Shown in pieces: positions 8,199-41,720 of a stretch of 41,720 bases of DNA. The position numbers were made by a program, and so were the translations under genes. The stretch lies in the IMG/VR virus record IMGVR_UViG_3300044823_000534, positions 1-41,720 of that record; one strand, given 5' to 3'. The number at the start of each line of letters is the position of its first letter. Within the stretch, counting starts at the first letter, position 1. The stretch comes from a virus. The notes below the pieces were generated by a model. That model did not search any database. It was not told the DNA's origin and was given only the letters and a program-made list of their open reading frames with translations.

Positions 8199-10157
8199 TT
8201 AAGCTATTTTGGAAATTGTATCTCTATTATTACACGGGTTGTCTTCAGGTAACTCCCATGAATCACTAATATTTTTACGCTTTCTTGATTTAGGTTTTTC
8301 AGTATTTTCCGGCTGTTTTGTTTCTTCAGCTTCATTCAATTGAATGATATTCATATTGTCGAATTGCTTTTTTGCGTAAGGATAAATTTCTTCCTGCAGG
8401 AACTTTTTAGCATCGCCGACAATTGATTTTTTTAAGGAACCTTTTCTCTCCAGTTGCTCGTGTAAAATTCTAACATCTTCTTCATTACCGAGGATGCCGG
8501 CAGCAGGATGAACTTTGTCGAAACGTTTAGCTTCACAAATGAACTCACCATTTTTATCGTAAACAAAAATTGAATCATGTTCAAGAATATCATAACGGAT
8601 TAAAACTTCATCCCATTGTTTGCCGAATAATGCTTCATGCCAGTAAGATGTACTGAACATCCTGATTCCATTGCGGTAAAGAGTTTTAATTTCTGCCTGC
8701 ATCATCAGGAAGTTTAATTCTTTCTTATCAACTCCCGGTCCCTTGCCGGCGTTAAAAACTTCTGCAGGAGTTAAACCTTTAAGATGTCCCTGCTGCTGAA
8801 CTCTTGAATGATATTCATCAAGCCACCAGGCAAGAGCTCTGTGCGCCGTAAAAATATCTATTGTAGTACCGGTCATCATTTTTTCATAAAGTTTTACGTG
8901 AAGTTTTTCGCCGCGATTCATTCGCGGTGGCTGTAATGTTATTGAAGTACCGGAATAAGTAGGCATCATTCTTTCTAGTTCTGCCATAATGCCCCATGTT
9001 CTTTCAATGTTTTTGCCCTGGGCATGATATGCCTGAGCAAAAATTACTTTAATTCCGAGACGTGCTAAAAGAGCAACAATATTTTCCATATCATCACCGT
9101 GAAAATATTTAGCGCCGAAAGCACGTCCGTTATCTATATAAAGAACTTTCGGAACTTTGCCAAGATTAAGAATTGCTCTCCGGAGAGCCACTGCAATTGA
9201 ATGAGTATTTTCTGTGGGCGAGATTTCATAACCGGCTAAATAATTACTTTTCATATCCAGGGCGCCGATCGTCTGCATGCGTTTTGGTTTACCGGTATAA
9301 GGATTAATTATTTCATAATTGTTTACGTGACCATCCATAATGATAATATCACCGACTTCAATCCTATCATAATCACGTTCGAGATAAGGAAGGATTTTAT
9401 TATCGAGCGCATGTTCGCCTTCACGGAAGAAAACCCAATCTGCATAATGTTCTTTACTCCATTTTTCAATGAAGCGGCGGTATGTATTTTTATGGAGGAT
9501 TGTCTCGTCTCTTTTTATTGCAAAAATATCAATCGACATTCTAACAACTTCTGAAGTAAGCGGCTGATTTGGATTGAGCGCCAGTTTAATAAGTACTTCT
9601 GCCTGATGAGGCGGGATAGAACTGCCACGATCGATTTTCTTATCCGCAAATACCCGGAAATCATTTCCCGAATCAAGATATTCTTTTTTCCAGCGTTCGA
9701 TTGTTTTCCAGCTGCCGAGGTTACTTGTATGTTTATATAATTCAGGAAATGCATTATGATTATATAGATTAACAAATTTTACCCGGGTGTTTTCATCCTT
9801 TCCATTGTTGGAAAGATATTCGAGATAAAGCTTTATGACTGAAGAATAAGCCAGGCAGCGTTCGGTTTCTTCCAGAGTGAGTTCAATGTCACATGTTTTC
9901 GTTGTCAGTTTTTCAGGCATTAAAGATTGTTTAACTAGCGATTGTAAACCGTTTAATATGGTATTGCGTAAAGATTCAGGAATAGATTCGTCATTTTTAT
10001 TTATATATCCTTTACCTCCGATTTTTTGATAAGTTTTATAATAATTGCGGGCTGTTCTCTGGCGAATGCTGGCATATTCTTTCTGCCATTCAACCGGATC
10101 GGAAACTTTCGCCAGGGTTTTTAATGAAATCATGTCTTCAGAAATTTCAGTTTTCAT
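8199..10157 (-). CDS. MuA-like DDE transposase (652 aa)
   Basis: A full-length MuA-type transposase, which cuts the phage ends and joins them to target DNA in integration and replicative transposition. The N-terminal ~240 residues are the end-binding, HTH-rich region. The RNase H-like catalytic core carries the DDE triad: D275 in IIIMDGHVNN, D342 in VLYIDNGRAFGAK, and E385 in GKNIERTWG. The beta-barrel typical of MuA follows around residues 500-550 (WDEVLIRYDILEHDSIFVYD). The last ~60 residues are charged and low in complexity, as expected for the part that contacts MuB or ClpX. Its start overlaps the 71-aa gene by four bases (ATGA). Length is close to MuA's 663 residues. Confidence 0.96.
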   Translation of the reverse strand: MKTEISEDMISLKTLAKVSDPVEWQKEYASIRQRTARNYYKTYQKIGGKGYINKNDESIPESLRNTILNGLQSLVKQSLMPEKLTTKTCDIELTLEETERCLAYSSVIKLYLEYLSNNGKDENTRVKFVNLYNHNAFPELYKHTSNLGSWKTIERWKKEYLDSGNDFRVFADKKIDRGSSIPPHQAEVLIKLALNPNQPLTSEVVRMSIDIFAIKRDETILHKNTYRRFIEKWSKEHYADWVFFREGEHALDNKILPYLERDYDRIEVGDIIIMDGHVNNYEIINPYTGKPKRMQTIGALDMKSNYLAGYEISPTENTHSIAVALRRAILNLGKVPKVLYIDNGRAFGAKYFHGDDMENIVALLARLGIKVIFAQAYHAQGKNIERTWGIMAELERMMPTYSGTSITLQPPRMNRGEKLHVKLYEKMMTGTTIDIFTAHRALAWWLDEYHSRVQQQGHLKGLTPAEVFNAGKGPGVDKKELNFLMMQAEIKTLYRNGIRMFSTSYWHEALFGKQWDEVLIRYDILEHDSIFVYDKNGEFICEAKRFDKVHPAAGILGNEEDVRILHEQLERKGSLKKSIVGDAKKFLQEEIYPYAKKQFDNMNIIQLNEAEETKQPENTEKPKSRKRKNISDSWELPEDNPCNNRDTISKIA

Positions 10158-15793: not shown

Positions 15794-17413
15794 TTATTTC
15801 TCTTTACTCGCTTCGGCATAACCTTCACACTCAGTGATGAAAAAAACTTTTGTAATGAGGTTCTGAATGTCATCAGTTTTCATTTTTGGATAAAGAGCAA
15901 TGAGTTTATTCTCAAACTCTTCCCGGCTGTTTGAATTCTTTGCAAGTTCAATAACTGGTTTTAATGTTTGCTCGATTGCAAACTGTAAAGTTTTATCCGG
16001 CAGCGCATTCGAGATCAGATCCGCTATTGTTTGTTTTGGAGCGGCATCGGAAAGCTCTAAGCGCCCACCGGTTAGAAAATTCCAAATCTTTTTTAATCTG
16101 GAAAGCTGAATTTGTTCTTTGAAATCCGGCTGAGGCGGATTTAAAGGATTAACTATTTGTCCCTGTGCATTAGGCATTAATTGAACAACGTCAAATTGAC
16201 TTTCATCCATATTATAATTTTCAACAAAATAGTCTTTCTTCGGTCTCCAGCCGGTATCAAATAGGCTTTTATCACGGGCAGCAAGTTCCACACTAATTTT
16301 TTCTTCTTCAAATACCCGGAAAATTGGATATAAACCGGAACCGATATTTATATCAATTATTCTTTTAAATAATTCATCGAATAAAGCGGAAGGAAAATCA
16401 CGATCTTCTTCGCCGATATTGCTTTCAATTGTATCAGCACCGGTCTGACTTGAAGCACGAGCGCCGGTTTTCTGTATTGAAGTACTCAATGAATTTGTAA
16501 GCCATGCTTCTGAGATAGCATTATCACAACGGTTAATAAATTTCTCATGAAGATCATTTGCGCCGGTACCTTTTGTTTCTATCAATTCAATAGATGAATC
16601 ATCCGGACCTGTTCCAACCGCATCTTGAACCATATTAGATAATTTATTTAACAGATCATCATGATCTTCCGGCTTGGCACCTCTGGGAAGTTTCCCAAAA
16701 ATATAAGGCATTCCAAATTTTTCAATAAACTGAGCATAGAATTTCATGCCACCGCGTTTGAAAGTAATGGGCCAGAAACAACGGGCTAAAGTTTTCTGTC
16801 CATAAGGATTTTCGTAAGAAGGATCATTTTGTAAAAGGATAAATTTGATTGCCAGAGCTGGATCGGCGCCCATACCTATCACTGGAATCCCATTCATATT
16901 AAAAGCATCACGAAATCTTAATTCATTTACACTTCCAAAATGGAACCACTCACGCGGTTTTTCTTCTAATTTTATCGGCAGGAAATAACCATTAACATTT
17001 CCCCAAACAATTTCAAATACTGAATAACCATAACCGATCGGATTAAGAGATTGTGAAATTATATCTTTCATCTTGAAACCGTTATCCGAAAGAGTATCTA
17101 AAGCAAGCTGACATATTTTAACTTCTTTTTCACTTGCGCCTTCACCTCTATCAATTTCCCAATCAAGATGCTTTGTTAAATTTTTTCTCCTCGTTTCCAT
17201 TGCAAAACAACGGCTATCTGAAGTAAGGTCTTTATAAACAACCTGATCTATATTTGATTTTCTAAGAATAGGATCCGGATCGGGCAACCAGTTGAAAAAT
17301 CCTACAAAACCGCCAAGCGCAAACTGCCTGGTGGCAATTTCAGAAGTCAGTTGTTCGTTAATTTTACTTAACGGAACAAATGTTGTTGGATTGATATACA
17401 AACCTTTTGTCAT
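15794..17413 (-). CDS. Portal protein, DUF935 / Mu gp29-like (539 aa)
   Basis: Dodecameric portal of the head, through which DNA is packaged. The family pattern is clear: an early NWLPDPDPILRK, then YKDLTSDSRCFAMETRRKNL (the S-D...R-x-x-x-V/N region), LDWEI, and later QKTLARCFWPITFKRGGMKF with F-I-E-K-F-G-M-P. The 'W-x-x-x-F-K-[RK]-x-G-x-x-x-[WY]-x-x-F-x-E-x-F-G-x-P' run is diagnostic of DUF935. Length is normal (~510-540). The C-terminal extension is predicted helical. The stop of the terminase upstream is one base away. Confidence 0.93.
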   Translation of the reverse strand: MTKGLYINPTTFVPLSKINEQLTSEIATRQFALGGFVGFFNWLPDPDPILRKSNIDQVVYKDLTSDSRCFAMETRRKNLTKHLDWEIDRGEGASEKEVKICQLALDTLSDNGFKMKDIISQSLNPIGYGYSVFEIVWGNVNGYFLPIKLEEKPREWFHFGSVNELRFRDAFNMNGIPVIGMGADPALAIKFILLQNDPSYENPYGQKTLARCFWPITFKRGGMKFYAQFIEKFGMPYIFGKLPRGAKPEDHDDLLNKLSNMVQDAVGTGPDDSSIELIETKGTGANDLHEKFINRCDNAISEAWLTNSLSTSIQKTGARASSQTGADTIESNIGEEDRDFPSALFDELFKRIIDINIGSGLYPIFRVFEEEKISVELAARDKSLFDTGWRPKKDYFVENYNMDESQFDVVQLMPNAQGQIVNPLNPPQPDFKEQIQLSRLKKIWNFLTGGRLELSDAAPKQTIADLISNALPDKTLQFAIEQTLKPVIELAKNSNSREEFENKLIALYPKMKTDDIQNLITKVFFITECEGYAEASKEK

Positions 17414-31888: not shown

Positions 31889-34800
31889 TTAAATTTAGAA
31901 ACGGACTTAACGGATCACTGATTGATTGGACTCCATCAATAATTATCAATCGAATTGGAGCTATTAAACGACAACTCGAATCAGATAATATTGGTGAATC
32001 CGGAATTATTGCATACGATAATGCTCAATTAACACTTGGTTATCAGGCAGTTAATAACCCGGTTTATAATGCCTTTAGCGGAGATCTTACACAGGCTGAA
32101 CAATATATTTTTGAACTTCATGGTGAGAAGAGCAATGGGACAACTTCTAAATTATTTGAAGGTTTATGCGACTTTTCAACTCTTAATTGGCCGGATTTAG
32201 AACAGAATATTGATCTTGAAATTGTCGATAAACTAAAATCGCTTGAGATTCTTACCAACACAACTACACAACGAGAATTCATTGATTTTTCAACAAGATC
32301 TTTTGTTACAAACGATCCTTCAAGACCTTATAAATACATCCAATTAACGAATGTTAAACAGACAAATTCTGATGCATCAAAAAGACCTTATTTGAAAGTT
32401 GTTGCTTTAGCATTTAATGCAAATGCAGAACGATGGCAATCAGATACAAATCCAACCGGTGTAGGAGTACCTATTAATTTTATTGATACCTTTGTCAAAC
32501 AAGGAGAAACCTTACGCCTTAATAAAGGCAACGGTATTTATGATTATTATTTTGTTGCTGGAAGTACACTTGAGACACGAGGTGCTCAAATGTCGGGAAG
32601 TCTTCTTCCCGGAGTTGTTGTAAATATGTTGGAATTATTACCAATAAATATTTCGACATTTGGATTTGGAAGAACAACTTGTCAATATGTTTATGATGCA
32701 AGTTCTCAAGGTGCTTATAATCCTGAATATGCTGAATCTAATGATGTTGCAACAAACGTATATATGATCCATTGTCAGGGTACCTTCCAAAACTCATATT
32801 GTTACGGTAGTCCTTATTATGGTAATGATACAATTAATATCACAACCAACGGAATAATCACAGGTTTTGATGCAATAAAAATAATTGAAGCAATTGCCAT
32901 TAATGCATGGAGTGATGTTGTAATTAGTAATCTTTCAACATATTCAACCTTCCCTATAAATCCATTCTTATATTTTCAACAATTACTTTTTGAAGATCCA
33001 TTTGATATGCATCCACTTGATGCAGTCAAATTTTTAGCGGATTCGCTTGGCTGTTATATCTTTTTTAATAAGCAGGGACAATTAGTATTAAAAAATAAAA
33101 GTACCATTTCTACAGGGACAGTTAGAACTCTTCCGGATGTTTATAAAAATGATGGTAATAAAAAATATTTTTGGGATAAAATTATTGATTCAGTTACGGT
33201 TAATGTTCAAACCAGCAAGACCGGAATATTAAAATCCATCACTGCAATAACAAAAGAAACTCAAGCGCAATTTACAATTCCGGGTCATGGTTATACTGCA
33301 GGTAATCCGTTAATGATATTTGGAGATACCACAACCGAATGGCAAAGTTTACTTGAAAATCAAAATTTGAGTGTTGTTATTGTTGATCAAAATACAATAA
33401 AATTAACATCGAATGGATCCTTTATAAATTCAACTGGGATGACTACAGATTATATTACTGAAAGTCTTTCAACTTTATTTGATGATGGAATTACTCCACT
33501 TACCTGGACAAAAAGCATTTCAATTTACCCGGGAATAAAACCACGCAATGAAATTCAGTTACAAGTTTTGGCGCCTTCTAATCTATCATTTACTCAAGCA
33601 GCTCTTGATAATTATGCTCTTACAATTGCTCAAAATGTTTTTAATTTTTACGGGCTTAGACATTTTTATTATAATATAAAAGTACGACTAAATGATGATA
33701 TGCTGGATTGGGAATTACTTGACCTAGTTTACATTTCGGGAGAATATTATTTTATTCTTTCCAGCGAAATTGATGAAGTCGCAACCACTGCAACTTTCGA
33801 ACTGGTTAGCGTTAACAGTTATGATTATAATTATCAGCAGGCTCAGATAGTTTTAAGCCCGGCAATTTATGCAGCATCAATAGGTTCTGCACCATCAACT
33901 GTCCAAACTGTTACTCAAGTGGTTTCTTCCGGAGGTGGAACAATTTCCATTTCGGCACAACTTCCTCTTCTTTTAACTGGTTCCGTTCTCTCAATCAATT
34001 ATTCTACTAATCTTAAAATCACAAATAATAATCTTGATACAATTCAAGGGATAAAAACAACAGATACTCCTCAATTCGCTAAAATCGGAATTGGAGGAAT
34101 AGCAGACACATCTTTTAATATAAAAAATTATGGCGACGAATGGATTGTCGGAAATCAAAAGGTAGATGGAGTAGTATCTATCGGCGGGATTGCAGATACA
34201 AATTATAAATTAAAAGTTTATGGGAATCAAAGAATAACCGGTGATTTAACAATTGATGGAAATTTTTATGTAACAGGAGCAATTAATGAAGTAAACCAAA
34301 CAAATCTAAACATAGTTGATCATACAATAAATCTAAATAATAGCGGAGATAATACCACAGCGTTAAACGGCGGCATACAAATGCTCGGAGCAAGTAATGC
34401 TGTTATTGCCTCAATAATTTACAATGGATCTGCATGGTTATCCTCCTTGCCTCTTGATTTATTGGCAGGCAATGTTTACAAAATAAATACAATTGAGGTC
34501 TTAAATTCTACAACACTTGGCGCCGGAATTATTAATTCATCTTTGACAAAAGTTGGAACAATAAGTACTGGTGTGTGGCAAGGAACAATAATCGACGGAA
34601 CATATATAAATTATAATACAACAAATTTTCAAGTCTCCTCGAATAAATTAAATACAATACAAAATATATCATTAACAAGCAGTCCGCAGTTTGCAAATGC
34701 AACATTAACCGGGCAACTAACTTGCAATATAGCAATTGGAACTGCTCCTTTAATCATAACATCTAATACTTTAGTAGCAAATTTAAATGCAGATAAAGTT

Positions 34801-37371
34801 GATAATTTTGATTTTGACCAAAGTGTGAAGACAACCAATAGTCCAACTTTTGTTCAACTAACATCATCTGCAACATTCGGAACGGCGCCATTTATAATCA
34901 TGTCCACAACAAAAGTTGCAAATCTTAATGCAGATAAAGTTGACGGATATGATTTTGATCAGTCGTTAAAGACAACGGATAGTCCTACTTTTTCTAATTT
35001 AATAATAACTAATAATTTCTCAACTAGTTTAGTAAACTCTAGTTTAATACCGATTTCAACAGATACCTACGATTTAGGTTCATCCACAAAATTATGGCGC
35101 AAAGGCTGGCTTTCGGAAATGGAAGCAATTCTATTTGCAAAAAATACTATTACACTTTTAGGTGGATGGTTTTATGTTACTAAAAATGCCGGCACTTTAC
35201 CCAGCGATGTAAATAATACGCAGACACAAATTGATCTTGGCACAACACTGAATTATGGTGACTATATTATCTTCCGTCAACCTTTAGTAGTTGAATATAT
35301 GATCGTTGGTTCAAATGTTTCGGGAACAACCTATAATGTTGGAAGGGATCTTGACGGGACCGGCGCGAATGCATGGGCAGCTGGAACTCCCTTTGCTGTT
35401 TTTGGACAGAACGGTGACGGAAGAATAGAACTAAATGCATATGACACTCCGCGAATTTCTTTAATTAAACAAGGTATAACATATAATAGTCAAACAGAAA
35501 TTATTCGTATAGGTGACTTAAATGGTATGCCGACATATTCAACACAAAAGTGGGGCATTTATATTGGTGATTCGACTCAATATCTAAAATATGATAAAGA
35601 TACCGGTGCGTTAGTTATTGCTGGAAATGGAAATGCATTAGATATTTCTTCAAATACAACAGTATCAACAATTAATTCTACTCTTACAACTTATGGTACG
35701 AGCATAACCGCTAACGCAAATGCGATAGCATTAAAAGCTTCACAATCTGATTTAAATACATTATCAGGAAGAGTTACAACCGCTGAGGCAAGTATTGTTA
35801 TCAATGCTAATGCAATCGCGCTTAAGGCTTCACAGACCAGCTTAGACACATTAACTGGTAGAGTTACAACTGCTGAATCAAACATAACTGTTAACGCAAA
35901 TAATATCGCACTAAAAGTTTCAACGACGGATTATACTGGTGCAACGATTGCAAGTAAACTTAATCTAACCTCTCACTCAATTGATATGAGTGCGTTGAAT
36001 ATTGATCTTACCGGGATAGTTACTTTTTCAAGTTTCGATACTACAACTGCAAATACAATAAACGGAAAAACAAATTCATCTGATGTAACAACTATCATCG
36101 GTAATACAGTAACAACAAGTTATCTAAATGCAAAATCAATTACTGCTTTAGGAGCAGTTACGGCAGGGACTTTTTCGCTCGGATCAGGAGCATTTAGTGT
36201 TGATGCAAACGGTAAATTAACAAGTACAAGCGCAGCTATAGCAAGTTGGGCTATAAATGCTACCAGTATCTCAAATACTTTCACATATGGAACAACTCAA
36301 CAGATTGTTAATTTGTATGGGGCACTTGTAGGCTCCCCAGCTGTAACTTCCGGTTTGCAAATAATATCTAATTTATATAATCCAAGTACTTTTACTTCAA
36401 CTAACCAGTTATTAATAACTGTAGGATCATATAATGATGCAGGAGCAATGAGGTCAGGTATATCTATTTGGGATTGCGTTAATAATGGTTGGTTAATGAA
36501 CGTTGGAAGTAGTGCAGGGGTAAATACCATTGCTTTAGCAGGATTTAACTTTACTAAAGACTATTTCTGTGATATAGCAGCAAAAATTTATATCAGTAGC
36601 ATTAATAAATCTATTTACATCAGACCTTTAACAGGTTTGACAAAATTTGTTATGGTAGGACAAACTTATTATGGAGGGACTTATGCCAGTCCAACTACTG
36701 CAGTATGGACCGGAAGTTATGGAATAAGCGCAATAGATAATTCAAATAGATGGATGTTTATTCTTGACGATCAATATACAATGATTGCAGGATGGACTTT
36801 TGATTATCAGAAATTTACTGTTGGTACATCTGCAATGGGCATGTCATTGAATACTTCGAGTACACCTTTTATTGCTAATAGTGGAACAGGTTTTGAGGTA
36901 TGGAATGTATCATCTCCCAAGATGATGCTTGGCACAAAAAATTCTACAGGAACAGCTTTAACAGCAGGTTATGATTGGAATATGACTACAACAAATAAAT
37001 TAACAGTTGTAGGTGATATGATAGGCTCAAATTTTAGTACAATAAGTTCTTTAGATACTACAAAAGTAGGTACTTGGTCAATGATGAAAGCAGGTAATAT
37101 TTGGGCTTCTTACTATAATAATAGCATTCAATATTTAACTATGATAGCAGGAGCAGCATTAACTTTGAGCAATCTGTCCAATAATAATAATATTCAAATA
37201 AATTCAGCAGGCTCAGCAGGTAGTTGGATGTCTATGGATGGTTATTATGTACCTAAATATTTAGGTGTTATTAATTCTCCTGCAATGTCATTAAACCCTG
37301 GTGATTTTAGATTTAATACAGCGGGCAAATTTCTTGTTTATAACGGTAGTGCGTGGCAGCAAATTAATTAG
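31888..37371 (+). CDS. Giant tail-tip / central fibre protein, apparent ATT start (1827 aa)
   Basis: The first conventional start is a TTG at 32392, but the frame is open and protein-like back to 31873. The best start is ATT 31888, which overlaps the tape measure stop as TAATT in the place of TAATG. The extra 168 residues (start (M)KFRNGLNGSLIDWTPSI) contain structured sequence and fill an otherwise empty 500-base gap. Residues to ~650 look like a tail-tip hub. From ~700 on come fibre repeats of the 'T-T-D-[ST]-P-[TQ]-F' type (near 34050, 34670, 34830 and 34975), then three 30-residue 'NANAIALKASQ...RVTTAE' repeats at 35713 onward. The C-terminus is glycine/serine rich with beta-strand character. 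It is comparable in role to lambda J with fused fibre domains. Confidence 0.8.
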   Translation: MKFRNGLNGSLIDWTPSIIINRIGAIKRQLESDNIGESGIIAYDNAQLTLGYQAVNNPVYNAFSGDLTQAEQYIFELHGEKSNGTTSKLFEGLCDFSTLNWPDLEQNIDLEIVDKLKSLEILTNTTTQREFIDFSTRSFVTNDPSRPYKYIQLTNVKQTNSDASKRPYLKVVALAFNANAERWQSDTNPTGVGVPINFIDTFVKQGETLRLNKGNGIYDYYFVAGSTLETRGAQMSGSLLPGVVVNMLELLPINISTFGFGRTTCQYVYDASSQGAYNPEYAESNDVATNVYMIHCQGTFQNSYCYGSPYYGNDTINITTNGIITGFDAIKIIEAIAINAWSDVVISNLSTYSTFPINPFLYFQQLLFEDPFDMHPLDAVKFLADSLGCYIFFNKQGQLVLKNKSTISTGTVRTLPDVYKNDGNKKYFWDKIIDSVTVNVQTSKTGILKSITAITKETQAQFTIPGHGYTAGNPLMIFGDTTTEWQSLLENQNLSVVIVDQNTIKLTSNGSFINSTGMTTDYITESLSTLFDDGITPLTWTKSISIYPGIKPRNEIQLQVLAPSNLSFTQAALDNYALTIAQNVFNFYGLRHFYYNIKVRLNDDMLDWELLDLVYISGEYYFILSSEIDEVATTATFELVSVNSYDYNYQQAQIVLSPAIYAASIGSAPSTVQTVTQVVSSGGGTISISAQLPLLLTGSVLSINYSTNLKITNNNLDTIQGIKTTDTPQFAKIGIGGIADTSFNIKNYGDEWIVGNQKVDGVVSIGGIADTNYKLKVYGNQRITGDLTIDGNFYVTGAINEVNQTNLNIVDHTINLNNSGDNTTALNGGIQMLGASNAVIASIIYNGSAWLSSLPLDLLAGNVYKINTIEVLNSTTLGAGIINSSLTKVGTISTGVWQGTIIDGTYINYNTTNFQVSSNKLNTIQNISLTSSPQFANATLTGQLTCNIAIGTAPLIITSNTLVANLNADKVDNFDFDQSVKTTNSPTFVQLTSSATFGTAPFIIMSTTKVANLNADKVDGYDFDQSLKTTDSPTFSNLIITNNFSTSLVNSSLIPISTDTYDLGSSTKLWRKGWLSEMEAILFAKNTITLLGGWFYVTKNAGTLPSDVNNTQTQIDLGTTLNYGDYIIFRQPLVVEYMIVGSNVSGTTYNVGRDLDGTGANAWAAGTPFAVFGQNGDGRIELNAYDTPRISLIKQGITYNSQTEIIRIGDLNGMPTYSTQKWGIYIGDSTQYLKYDKDTGALVIAGNGNALDISSNTTVSTINSTLTTYGTSITANANAIALKASQSDLNTLSGRVTTAEASIVINANAIALKASQTSLDTLTGRVTTAESNITVNANNIALKVSTTDYTGATIASKLNLTSHSIDMSALNIDLTGIVTFSSFDTTTANTINGKTNSSDVTTIIGNTVTTSYLNAKSITALGAVTAGTFSLGSGAFSVDANGKLTSTSAAIASWAINATSISNTFTYGTTQQIVNLYGALVGSPAVTSGLQIISNLYNPSTFTSTNQLLITVGSYNDAGAMRSGISIWDCVNNGWLMNVGSSAGVNTIALAGFNFTKDYFCDIAAKIYISSINKSIYIRPLTGLTKFVMVGQTYYGGTYASPTTAVWTGSYGISAIDNSNRWMFILDDQYTMIAGWTFDYQKFTVGTSAMGMSLNTSSTPFIANSGTGFEVWNVSSPKMMLGTKNSTGTALTAGYDWNMTTTNKLTVVGDMIGSNFSTISSLDTTKVGTWSMMKAGNIWASYYNNSIQYLTMIAGAALTLSNLSNNNNIQINSAGSAGSWMSMDGYYVPKYLGVINSPAMSLNPGDFRFNTAGKFLVYNGSAWQQIN
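35713..35982 (+). repeat. Three 30-codon repeats in the tail-tip gene
   Basis: A 90-base period encodes NANAIALKASQ...TLSGRVTTAE... at 35713-35802, again at 35803-35892 and in diverged form from 35893. The repeat is the short coiled-coil linker common in phage tail-tip and fibre proteins, where a heptad stretch alternates with a threonine-alanine turn. DNA identity is partial, so the repeat is old compared with that at 38821. Confidence 0.75.
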
Positions 37372-38596: not shown

Positions 38597-40306
38597 ATGC
38601 CTTTAAGAAATTTTGTACCAAACGCAAATAAAGAAGAACGCACAATCGGTACGCTGCTCAAAAAATGGCTGAAGGGTTTTTTCTATGATTTATCGATTGA
38701 GCATAATCTCACCGATGAAACTAATTCGGTCACGGTTGCTCAGATAAAAACTGCAAGTGATAACGAGCATACACATTCAAATAAAACTAATCTCGATAAC
38801 GTTTCCGGTATCAATACAGGAGATCAAGATTTATCCGGTAAAGTGGATAAAATAACCGACAAAGGACTCTCGGCAAACGATTATACAAATGATGAAAAAA
38901 CAAAATTAGATGCAATCTCAGGGACAAATACAGGAGATGAAACTTCAACCTCCATTAAATCGAAATTAAGTATCTCAACTTTATCCGGTTCTAATACCGG
39001 CGATCAGGATTTATCCGGTAAAGTGGATAAAATAACCGGTAAAGGACTCTCGGCAAACGATTATACAAATGATGAAAAAACAAAATTAGATGCAATCTCA
39101 GGGACAAATACAGGAGATGAAACTTCAACCTCCATTAAATCGAAATTAAGTATCTCAACTTTATCCGGTTCTAATACCGGCGATCAGGATTTATCCGGCA
39201 AAGTCGATAAAATAACCGACAAAGGACTCTCGGCAAACGATTATACAAATGATGAAAAAACAAAATTAGATGCAATCTCAGGGACAAATACTGGAGATGA
39301 AACTTCAACCTCCATTAAATCGAAATTAAGTATCTCAACTTTATCCGGTTCTAATACCGGGGACCAGGATTTATCCGGCAAAGTCGATAAAATAACCGAC
39401 AAAGGACTCTCGGCAAATGATTTTACAAATGACGAAAAAAGTAAACTTGATAATATTTCCGGATCAAATTATGGTGATGAAACCAACTCCACAATCATTA
39501 CTAAAATTGGTTTCACTCCGGAAAATTCAGCGAATAAGAATCAGGAGAGCGGTTACGCCGGTCTTGATAGTAATAGTAAATTAAATCCTTCTCAATTGCC
39601 GTCTATTGCTATTATTGATTTTCTTGGGACAGTTGTTTCTCAAATAGCTATGTTGGCTTTAACCGGTCAAAAAGGTGATTGGTGCATAAGAAGTGATCAA
39701 TCATTATCTCCGATGTGGATAATTACTGGTAGTGATCCAACTCAATTAAATAATTGGACTGCAATCCCATATCCAGCTATTCCAACTTTATTATCTCAGC
39801 TAGGTGATGATAGTACACATAGATTAGTAACTGATACGATCTTAACACGTTTGGCAAACACCTCAGGGACAAATACGGGTGATCAAGATCTATCTGGTAA
39901 AGTTGATAAAGTATCAGGTGATAGATTAATAACGTCTGCTGAATCTACTTTACTCGGGAATACGAGTGGTACTAATTCTGGGGATCAAGATTTAAGCGGT
40001 AAAGTTGATAAGATCACGGGTAAAGGACTTTCGACAAATGATTATACAACTGCTGAAAAAAATAGTTTAGCAAATGCGGTCCCAAATACTCGGACTATAA
40101 ATGGTCATGCTTTGAGTGCTGATATAACATTGATTGCATCGGATATTGGTCTCGGCGACGAAGACATGACTGCAGCAATTGCTTCTGCATTAAAGTTCGA
40201 AGCGTTTTTCAATTTTGTCATAAATGGGATTCTTGATTTAACTACATCAGCATTAAATATAGATTTTAATCAAACAATTCTAAAATTAGACTTAGGAGCG
40301 AAATAA
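38597..40306 (+). CDS. Repeat-rich tail fibre protein (569 aa)
   Basis: AGGAG precedes ATG 38597. After ~70 N-terminal residues the protein contains nearly identical 60-residue repeats (GDQDLSGKVDKITDKGLSAN, DYTNDEKTKLDAISGTNTGD, ETSTSIKSKLSISTLSGSNT). Two diverged copies lie further on at 39865-40060. The 'LS-x-[NY]-[DY]-[FY]-T-x-x-[EL]-K-x-K-L' motif marks tail fibre and receptor-binding proteins in many Gram-negative phages. The final ~130 residues hold the typical N-x-H-x-L-x-x-D-I-T-L turn. It probably forms a trimeric fibre, and repeat number may set its length. Confidence 0.87.
   Translation: MPLRNFVPNANKEERTIGTLLKKWLKGFFYDLSIEHNLTDETNSVTVAQIKTASDNEHTHSNKTNLDNVSGINTGDQDLSGKVDKITDKGLSANDYTNDEKTKLDAISGTNTGDETSTSIKSKLSISTLSGSNTGDQDLSGKVDKITGKGLSANDYTNDEKTKLDAISGTNTGDETSTSIKSKLSISTLSGSNTGDQDLSGKVDKITDKGLSANDYTNDEKTKLDAISGTNTGDETSTSIKSKLSISTLSGSNTGDQDLSGKVDKITDKGLSANDFTNDEKSKLDNISGSNYGDETNSTIITKIGFTPENSANKNQESGYAGLDSNSKLNPSQLPSIAIIDFLGTVVSQIAMLALTGQKGDWCIRSDQSLSPMWIITGSDPTQLNNWTAIPYPAIPTLLSQLGDDSTHRLVTDTILTRLANTSGTNTGDQDLSGKVDKVSGDRLITSAESTLLGNTSGTNSGDQDLSGKVDKITGKGLSTNDYTTAEKNSLANAVPNTRTINGHALSADITLIASDIGLGDEDMTAAIASALKFEAFFNFVINGILDLTTSALNIDFNQTILKLDLGAK
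38821..39480 (+). repeat. 180-bp tandem repeats in the fibre gene
   Basis: Three near-identical 180-base units (38821-39000, 39001-39180, 39181-39360) and a partial fourth (39361 to about 39480) encode 60-residue fibre repeats. Differences are few and mostly synonymous (for example GGTAAAGTGGAT against GGCAAAGTCGAT). That indicates recent duplication or ongoing recombination. Copy number may vary between isolates, and assemblies may collapse here. Confidence 0.93.
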
Positions 40307-40307
40307 A

Positions 40308-41720
40308 ATGGGCTTACAATTATTGCGTGGTAATAAGACAAACAAACCGACATTAAATGCCGGTGAAGTATTTGTTGCACTTGATACAAATGAATTTGTA
40401 GTTGGGTTAGGCAACAATTGTGATATTTCAATGCCAATGAGTAAAGTAAATGATATTGGCACTCCCGGTAGTGTTGGTTTTGGAGTTGGCATAGCTCCCT
40501 ATGTTCCATCTTATATCATACCACTTCCAGGTACTTTTTCACTTGGCAACGATCAATATGGGAATTATAAGTGTGTAATTGATAATTCAATCGTGTGCTG
40601 GATACCAAAACATTATGAAAGAATTACTAATGTTACGGCAGCTCCATATTATGGAACAAAAGCTGATGTTGCAGGAATTAATGTTTTCGCAAATGAAGCC
40701 GCTGCAAATCTTTTAGGATATTTTTTACCTCGTTCCTTTGTGGATGGCGGAGTTATAAAAGATGGGTTTTTTGTAGATAAGGTTAAATGGAGTCTCACAA
40801 ACTTTGTTTATAATTCCACAGGAATTGCTTCTTCAATATTAAACTCAAATCCTGTTACTTCTTCAGCTGATGCAAATAGAAATGCTTCAAATCTCTTTGC
40901 CGGGTCTTTTTCGAATTTTAAAAGCAATGGACAATCACCTGCAGATAATTATGGAGGTGCATGGGCGGCTGCAAAGTCTCGTGGAAATGATTTTGCTGTA
41001 TGTTCTATGTTTATTCATTCCACATTAGCATTTTTGTCATTAGCTCATGGACAGGCATCAATTTCAAATGCTAACAATGCCTGGTATGATCCGACCGGTG
41101 TTAACAATTTTCCGAAAGGAAATAATAATTCTGGGGCAGATATAAATGATTCGACTTGCACTTTTTCTGTTTGTGATGATAGTTATTGGGCGAGTCTTAA
41201 TTGTGCTCGCAAAAACGGATCCGGTTCAATATTTGCAAAGATAACCCATAATGGTCAAAATTGTGGAGTGGCTGATCTCAATGGAAATCAGTACGAGATC
41301 TCTCAAGGTTTTACAAATATCGGAGGAGTTGCAGGTGGCTTTTTGAGTCTTAAAGAAAGTATTGCATTAATGAATGTGACCGGAGGTGCTGGCGGAGCCA
41401 ATGATCATTTCTCAAATGCAACTATTTTTAATGCAATTACTTTACCAACTGACTTGACAGGAGCTACCGGTTGGACTTATTTTGGTAATAGTACAAATCA
41501 AATATTTAGCGGTATAACTGATAGAACAAATAATGCTTATCTTTTAACTGCATTAGGATTACCACAACTCAATGGAAGTGGATCCGGAATAAATATGATG
41601 GGTAACGACGGTCTCTATAAATTTATACTTGATCAGTTGTGTCCTATTCTCGGCGGCTATTGGCTTAATACCTCTAATGCCGGCGTTTGGTGTGTCTATT
41701 TGAATGGTTATCGTACTACT
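40308..41720 (+). CDS. Receptor-binding-type protein with C-terminal CLec fold, probable DGR target; truncated by window end
   Basis: The frame runs open from ATG 40308 through the last base (471 codons) and is therefore partial. It starts one base after the fibre stop. The N-terminus (MGLQLLRGNKTNKPTLNAGE) is like fibre-tip attachment modules. From about residue 90 on the sequence resembles C-type-lectin/formylglycine-generating-enzyme-like targets: CWIPKHYERIT, KSRGNDFAVCSMFIHSTLAF, NNFPKGNNN. The visible end reads CPILGGYWLNTSNAGVWCVY and then LNGYRTT. This matches the G-G-x-W-x-N-x-x-x-A-G-V-x-x-x-x-L-N motif at the C-terminus of diversity-generating retroelement variable proteins. A normal, non-DGR CLec-fold fibre tip is the alternative. 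Confidence 0.8.
   Translation, partial: MGLQLLRGNKTNKPTLNAGEVFVALDTNEFVVGLGNNCDISMPMSKVNDIGTPGSVGFGVGIAPYVPSYIIPLPGTFSLGNDQYGNYKCVIDNSIVCWIPKHYERITNVTAAPYYGTKADVAGINVFANEAAANLLGYFLPRSFVDGGVIKDGFFVDKVKWSLTNFVYNSTGIASSILNSNPVTSSADANRNASNLFAGSFSNFKSNGQSPADNYGGAWAAAKSRGNDFAVCSMFIHSTLAFLSLAHGQASISNANNAWYDPTGVNNFPKGNNNSGADINDSTCTFSVCDDSYWASLNCARKNGSGSIFAKITHNGQNCGVADLNGNQYEISQGFTNIGGVAGGFLSLKESIALMNVTGGAGGANDHFSNATIFNAITLPTDLTGATGWTYFGNSTNQIFSGITDRTNNAYLLTALGLPQLNGSGSGINMMGNDGLYKFILDQLCPILGGYWLNTSNAGVWCVYLNGYRTT
41640..41720 (+). other. Start of a putative DGR variable region
   Basis: Codons 445-471 spell CPILGGYWLNTSNAGVWCVY and LNGYRTT. At positions usually variable in DGR targets the codons are TAT, CTT, TGT, TAT, GGT, TAT. 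All end in T, as expected if AAT codons of a template repeat had their adenines replaced. The rest of the variable region, the template repeat and the reverse transcriptase would lie beyond the window. No copy of this segment was seen elsewhere in the window. Confidence 0.6.

Follow-up and report, generated by a model that had tools for sequence, protein, structure and literature searches.

Phage setting of the record

The DNA analysed here (the window) is the whole of IMG/VR record IMGVR_UViG_3300044823_000534, a truncated record of 41,720 bp. The C-terminal domain of the Mu transposase (PF09299), the Mu portal (PF06074) and the Mu F protein (PF04233) are all matched above cut-off, and on these families the phage is a Mu-like transposable phage, which bears out the description "transposable phage" given in the initial annotation. 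The gene considered here is the last of the record and follows a tail-fibre-like gene, in which the 180-bp repeat is present in about four copies, supplemented by degenerate ones. Coordinates of these features, and of their counterparts in related phages, are collected in Table 1.

The reverse transcriptase (RT) family PF00078 has no match anywhere in the 41,720-bp record. Neither is a template repeat (TR) present within it, as the best non-self alignment of positions 41640-41720 contains 17 non-adenine mismatches in 81 bases. A cassette of a diversity-generating retroelement (DGR) is therefore invisible in this molecule, and the reading developed below depends on its relatives.

Table 1. Features of the window and of related phage loci. 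Plain numbers are window positions; the prefixes L038, L001 and L003 denote loci of G001 (IMGVR_UViG_3300021182_000386), Helicobacter ganmani prophage BK070120 and Campylobacter phage CP220, respectively.
Feature	Position	Strand	Evidence or remark
Mu-type transposase	8199..10157	-	PF09299 Mu-transpos_C, 4.3e-14
Mu-type portal protein	15794..17413	-	PF06074 Portal_Mu, 1.1e-73
Tail-fibre-like gene, upstream of target	38597..40306	+	180-bp repeat copies; PHROG tail fibre matches
DGR target gene (predicted), probable tail-tip receptor-binding protein	40308..41720	+	471 codons seen, open at record end; homologous targets in G001 and the H. ganmani prophage
N-terminal stretch, weakly like the N-terminal domain of Bordetella phage Mtd	40317..40406	+	PF18454, E = 0.0021, below curated cut-off
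C-terminal region homologous to FGE-type C-type-lectin domains of DGR targets	41109..41720	+	HNGQxxGVADLNGN and GGxW...AGVW...R motifs; phrog_2889
Variable repeat (VR), first part, cut by record end	41638..41720	+	aligned to G001 VR and TR
G001 target gene	L038:7228-8943	-	homologue of window target, 47% identity in alignment
G001 Avd gene, 116 codons	L038:6815-7165		NCBIfam DivGenRetAVD 96.3 bits (cut-off 80); PHROG "Avd protein of DGR"
G001 template repeat	L038:6686-6797		near-identical to G001 VR
G001 reverse transcriptase, 344 codons	L038:5495-6529		PF00078, 7e-27
Complete unannotated DGR, BK070120	L001:7207-9220		VR, Avd-like gene, TR, RT
Target-body homologue in CP220	L003:2569-4320		27% identity; little of the variable motif

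The last gene and its protein

The translation of the last gene finishes in CPILGGYWLNTSNAGVWCVYLNGYRTT, where it is cut by the record end, and this is the ending from which the initial annotation had proposed a C-type-lectin (CLec) motif of a DGR target. The family phrog_2889 matches the C-terminal part of the protein with E = 2.2e-07, and the same family matches the DGR target of another viral locus, L043, with 1.1e-124. A profile built from the three targets (window, G001 and H. ganmani prophage) aligns with one built from two further phage DGR targets at a probability of 98% (E = 2.8e-13), the aligned motifs being HNGxxxGxADLxGN and GGxWxxxxxAGVxxxxLxxxR. The crystal structure of TaqVP from Thermus aquaticus (PDB 5VF4) is that of an FGE-type C-type-lectin DGR target (PMC6328139). 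It is distant from the window protein: a profile that includes the two other phage DGR targets matches TaqVP at 3.1e-48, and the profile without these two added targets gives a weak match (E = 0.036), yet on the same two motifs.

Structure prediction for the homologous target of G001 reached a mean pLDDT of only 27.6, so that the assignment of the CLec fold rests on homology. Homology places the VR at the C-terminus of the target, for which sequence profiles point to a probable CLec fold. Receptor binding is the likely role of the protein, given its profile matches, its weakly Mtd-like N-terminal stretch and its place after the tail-fibre-like gene. Short exact peptide patterns of the target retrieved no relatives from the viral and genome collections, and the other viral loci reached through the upstream fibre gene contain no match to it.

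Codons at the record end

The conserved GGC GGC of the VR starts at 41652, and the record stops 69 bases further on. The codons listed earlier as lying at usually variable sites are all present, namely TAT (41658), CTT (41664), TGT (41691), TAT (41697), GGT (41706) and TAT (41709), and TCT (41673) and ACT (41718) display the same T-ending pattern. The use first made of this pattern, as a sign of adenine-directed mutation of AAT codons, stands only in part. The pattern itself is real; as proof on its own it fails, since T-ending codons make up 49% of the rest of the gene and tyrosine is encoded by TAT in 15 of 16 cases. Bare T-ending codons were accordingly rejected as proof of a DGR, and it is the relatives that decide for this reading, because the argument from codon endings is weak by itself. 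As to the break in the assembly at 41652-41720, VR and TR repeats and variability in the population would be a plausible cause.

A close relative with a complete cassette

A search with the window terminase led to one viral contig, IMGVR_UViG_3300021182_000386 (G001), 30,678 bp in length. Its terminase is 93% identical to that of the window over the part that G001 holds, and its capsid protein is 94% identical. The two phages are syntenic: blastn pieces at 82-85% identity account for the greater part of window 18.2-34.2 kb and of 37.3-38.1 kb, and weaker matches lie between them. The same contig was the sole match when viral contigs were scanned for the exact VR pattern; the corresponding scan of genome contigs gave none.

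G001 extends beyond the point at which the window stops and there carries, in this order, a target gene, an Avd gene, a TR and an RT gene, the open reading frames of the cassette genes all being kept. An Avd protein is a frequent, though not an invariable, companion of DGRs. The best solved-structure match of the RT is 8ub7, "Reverse transcriptase" (3.3e-52), and the protein is 36% identical to Brt of Bordetella phage BPP-1. Judged by position in G001, the TR would lie about 0.5 kb, the RT about 0.75 kb and the end of the phage about 2.6 kb past the equivalent of the window end. An RT gene and a template repeat had been predicted just downstream of the window, and both are thus found in this relative at the homologous place.

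Differences between variable and template repeats

Within G001, VR and TR differ at 12 of 112 nucleotides, and every mismatch is at a template A (12/30 A against 0/82 other bases). The window VR can be compared only across phages, its own TR being outside the record. In this comparison with the G001 TR (41652-41720), 12 of 24 template-A positions differ, compared with 6 of the 45 remaining ones (Fisher p = 0.0015). Wherever the G001 TR has an AAT codon, the window has NNT, which holds for 11 codons in all. The encoded residue is changed at eight of these 11, against one of 12 other codons (p = 0.0025), and among the five other differing codons, which are not AAT, four are silent. Such a pattern is what would be expected from DGR mutagenesis together with the ordinary divergence of two related phages.

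The origin of the variable sites in AAT codons, as first proposed, agrees with the relative, which has AAT in its TR at each predicted site, and the codon pattern at the record end gains its force from this alignment of each listed codon with an AAT codon. The background codon frequencies given above, including the near-constant use of TAT for tyrosine, would allow the motif and the T-ending codons to be put down to chance in an AT-rich gene. This is exceedingly improbable in view of the homology to real VR/TR pairs and of the contrast between template-A and other sites, and the TR of G001, once aligned, refutes it.

Other relatives and the distribution of the cassette

Among annotated phages, the target is best matched by a protein of Helicobacter ganmani prophage BK070120, at 29.4% identity with 96% of the query covered. 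In this prophage some 0.9 kb separates the target from an RT gene downstream, and throughout the repeat TR and VR differ at adenines only. Its Avd-like gene is recognised above cut-off by the Pfam bAvd model and below cut-off by the NCBIfam Avd model.

Of the further viral records carrying related RTs, 11 were tested, and 10 of these 11 possess an adenine-biased VR/TR pair. Over the 80 bases compared, nine of the 10 pairs mismatch at adenines only, and that of L043 has one non-adenine mismatch. In the control of the finder, C or G in place of A returned nothing, and the matches returned for T are those of A on the reverse strand. Three loci without a detected RT likewise yielded no pair.

Proteins homologous to the body of the target are also encountered in phages in which the search for an RT was negative. 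Campylobacter phage CP220 has no RT in its whole genome of 177.5 kb, and the faecal phage record MT835557, which likewise contains a target-body homologue, has none in 42.9 kb. Homology of the body alone thus does not imply a DGR, and the CP220 protein may represent this receptor-binding family in a fixed state. These relatives without a detected RT, and the fact that neither RT nor TR occurs within the present record, would also suit a phage that has lost its DGR and keeps a fixed lectin-like receptor-binding protein, the VR being a fossil or simply the ordinary C-terminus of the family. Such a history is improbable: the relatives that lack an RT also lack much of the C-terminal motif, whereas the window retains the motif with NNT at every AAT site, and its nearest relative bears every part of the cassette, with the reading frames open.

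The preferred reading, to which we assign a probability of roughly 0.93, is that the last gene is the target of a DGR in a Mu-like temperate phage, and that the missing 2.6 kb or so would hold the rest of the VR, the Avd gene, the TR and the RT gene. The DGR interpretation first put forward is in this way supported by homology, a close relative carrying the complete cassette; for the window phage itself its presence is inferred from that nearest relative, and the DGR there may be inactive or lost.

Proposed mechanism and comparison with known systems

In Bordetella phage BPP-1 it is established that RNA of the TR is copied by RT and Avd and that the product replaces the VR. If the same process operates in the window phage, RT-Avd would copy TR RNA into cDNA, making errors at adenines, and the mutated cDNA would replace the VR. 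On the binding face of the CLec domain, AAT (Asn) codons would in this manner turn into NNT, and a varied binding face would be expected to vary attachment to the host.

The BPP-1 system (mtd-avd-TR-brt) resembles that of G001 in its order of target, Avd, TR and RT, in its C-terminal VR and in differences confined to adenines. Three points separate the window phage from BPP-1: the body of its target is not detectably Mtd save for the weak N-terminal match, its template codon is AAT, and host-range switching, which is proven by experiment in BPP-1, is here a prediction. The Bacteroides hankyphage, transposable like the window phage, carries a DGR that mutates a tail fibre gene (PMC6199706, PMC12135933); the window target, in contrast, matched no Bacteroides phage record. 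BK070120 shares with the cassette predicted here a homologous target and the order VR, Avd-like gene, TR and RT, but differs in genome context, and its record has no DGR annotation. C-type-lectin targets and adenine bias are near universal in DGRs according to a large survey (PMC8144416).

With this finding a DGR is assigned to an environmental lineage of transposable phages, and an unannotated receptor-binding-like family common to Campylobacter and Helicobacter phages is linked to DGR diversification. It also illustrates that a cassette hidden by the truncation of a record can come to light in a relative. The understanding of DGRs themselves is unchanged, and DGRs in transposable phages were already known. 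A wider picture can be offered only tentatively, and we consider it doubtful: a Mu-like lineage, whose hosts may be bacteria with type IX secretion, might carry a DGR on a target family common to a Helicobacter prophage and to Campylobacter phages without a detected RT, so that one receptor-binding scaffold would move between DGR-diversified and fixed forms, and the break of the record within the VR might stem from active diversification in the population.

Variation at the end of the phage

The targets of the window and G001 are less similar to each other (47%) than are the structural genes, and the genes directly upstream of the target differ as well, which indicates more frequent exchange at this end of the phage. 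At the equivalent of window positions 38597-40306 the gene content of G001 is different, and the fibre module has therefore been exchanged.

The target of G001 possesses an inserted domain (L038:7675-7956) that is absent from the window target. This domain shares 40% identity with part of the large tail protein of the phage itself (window 32392-37371, residues 270-362), which suggests domain shuffling within the tail module.

Finally, L038:1-4830 of G001 has the appearance of an integrated prophage end. The right end of the phage adjoins a gene for a subtilase that bears a type IX secretion tail; this gene seems to be without its start and is followed by one that by eye is uvrA-like; this arrangement fits a Mu-like insertion into a host gene.
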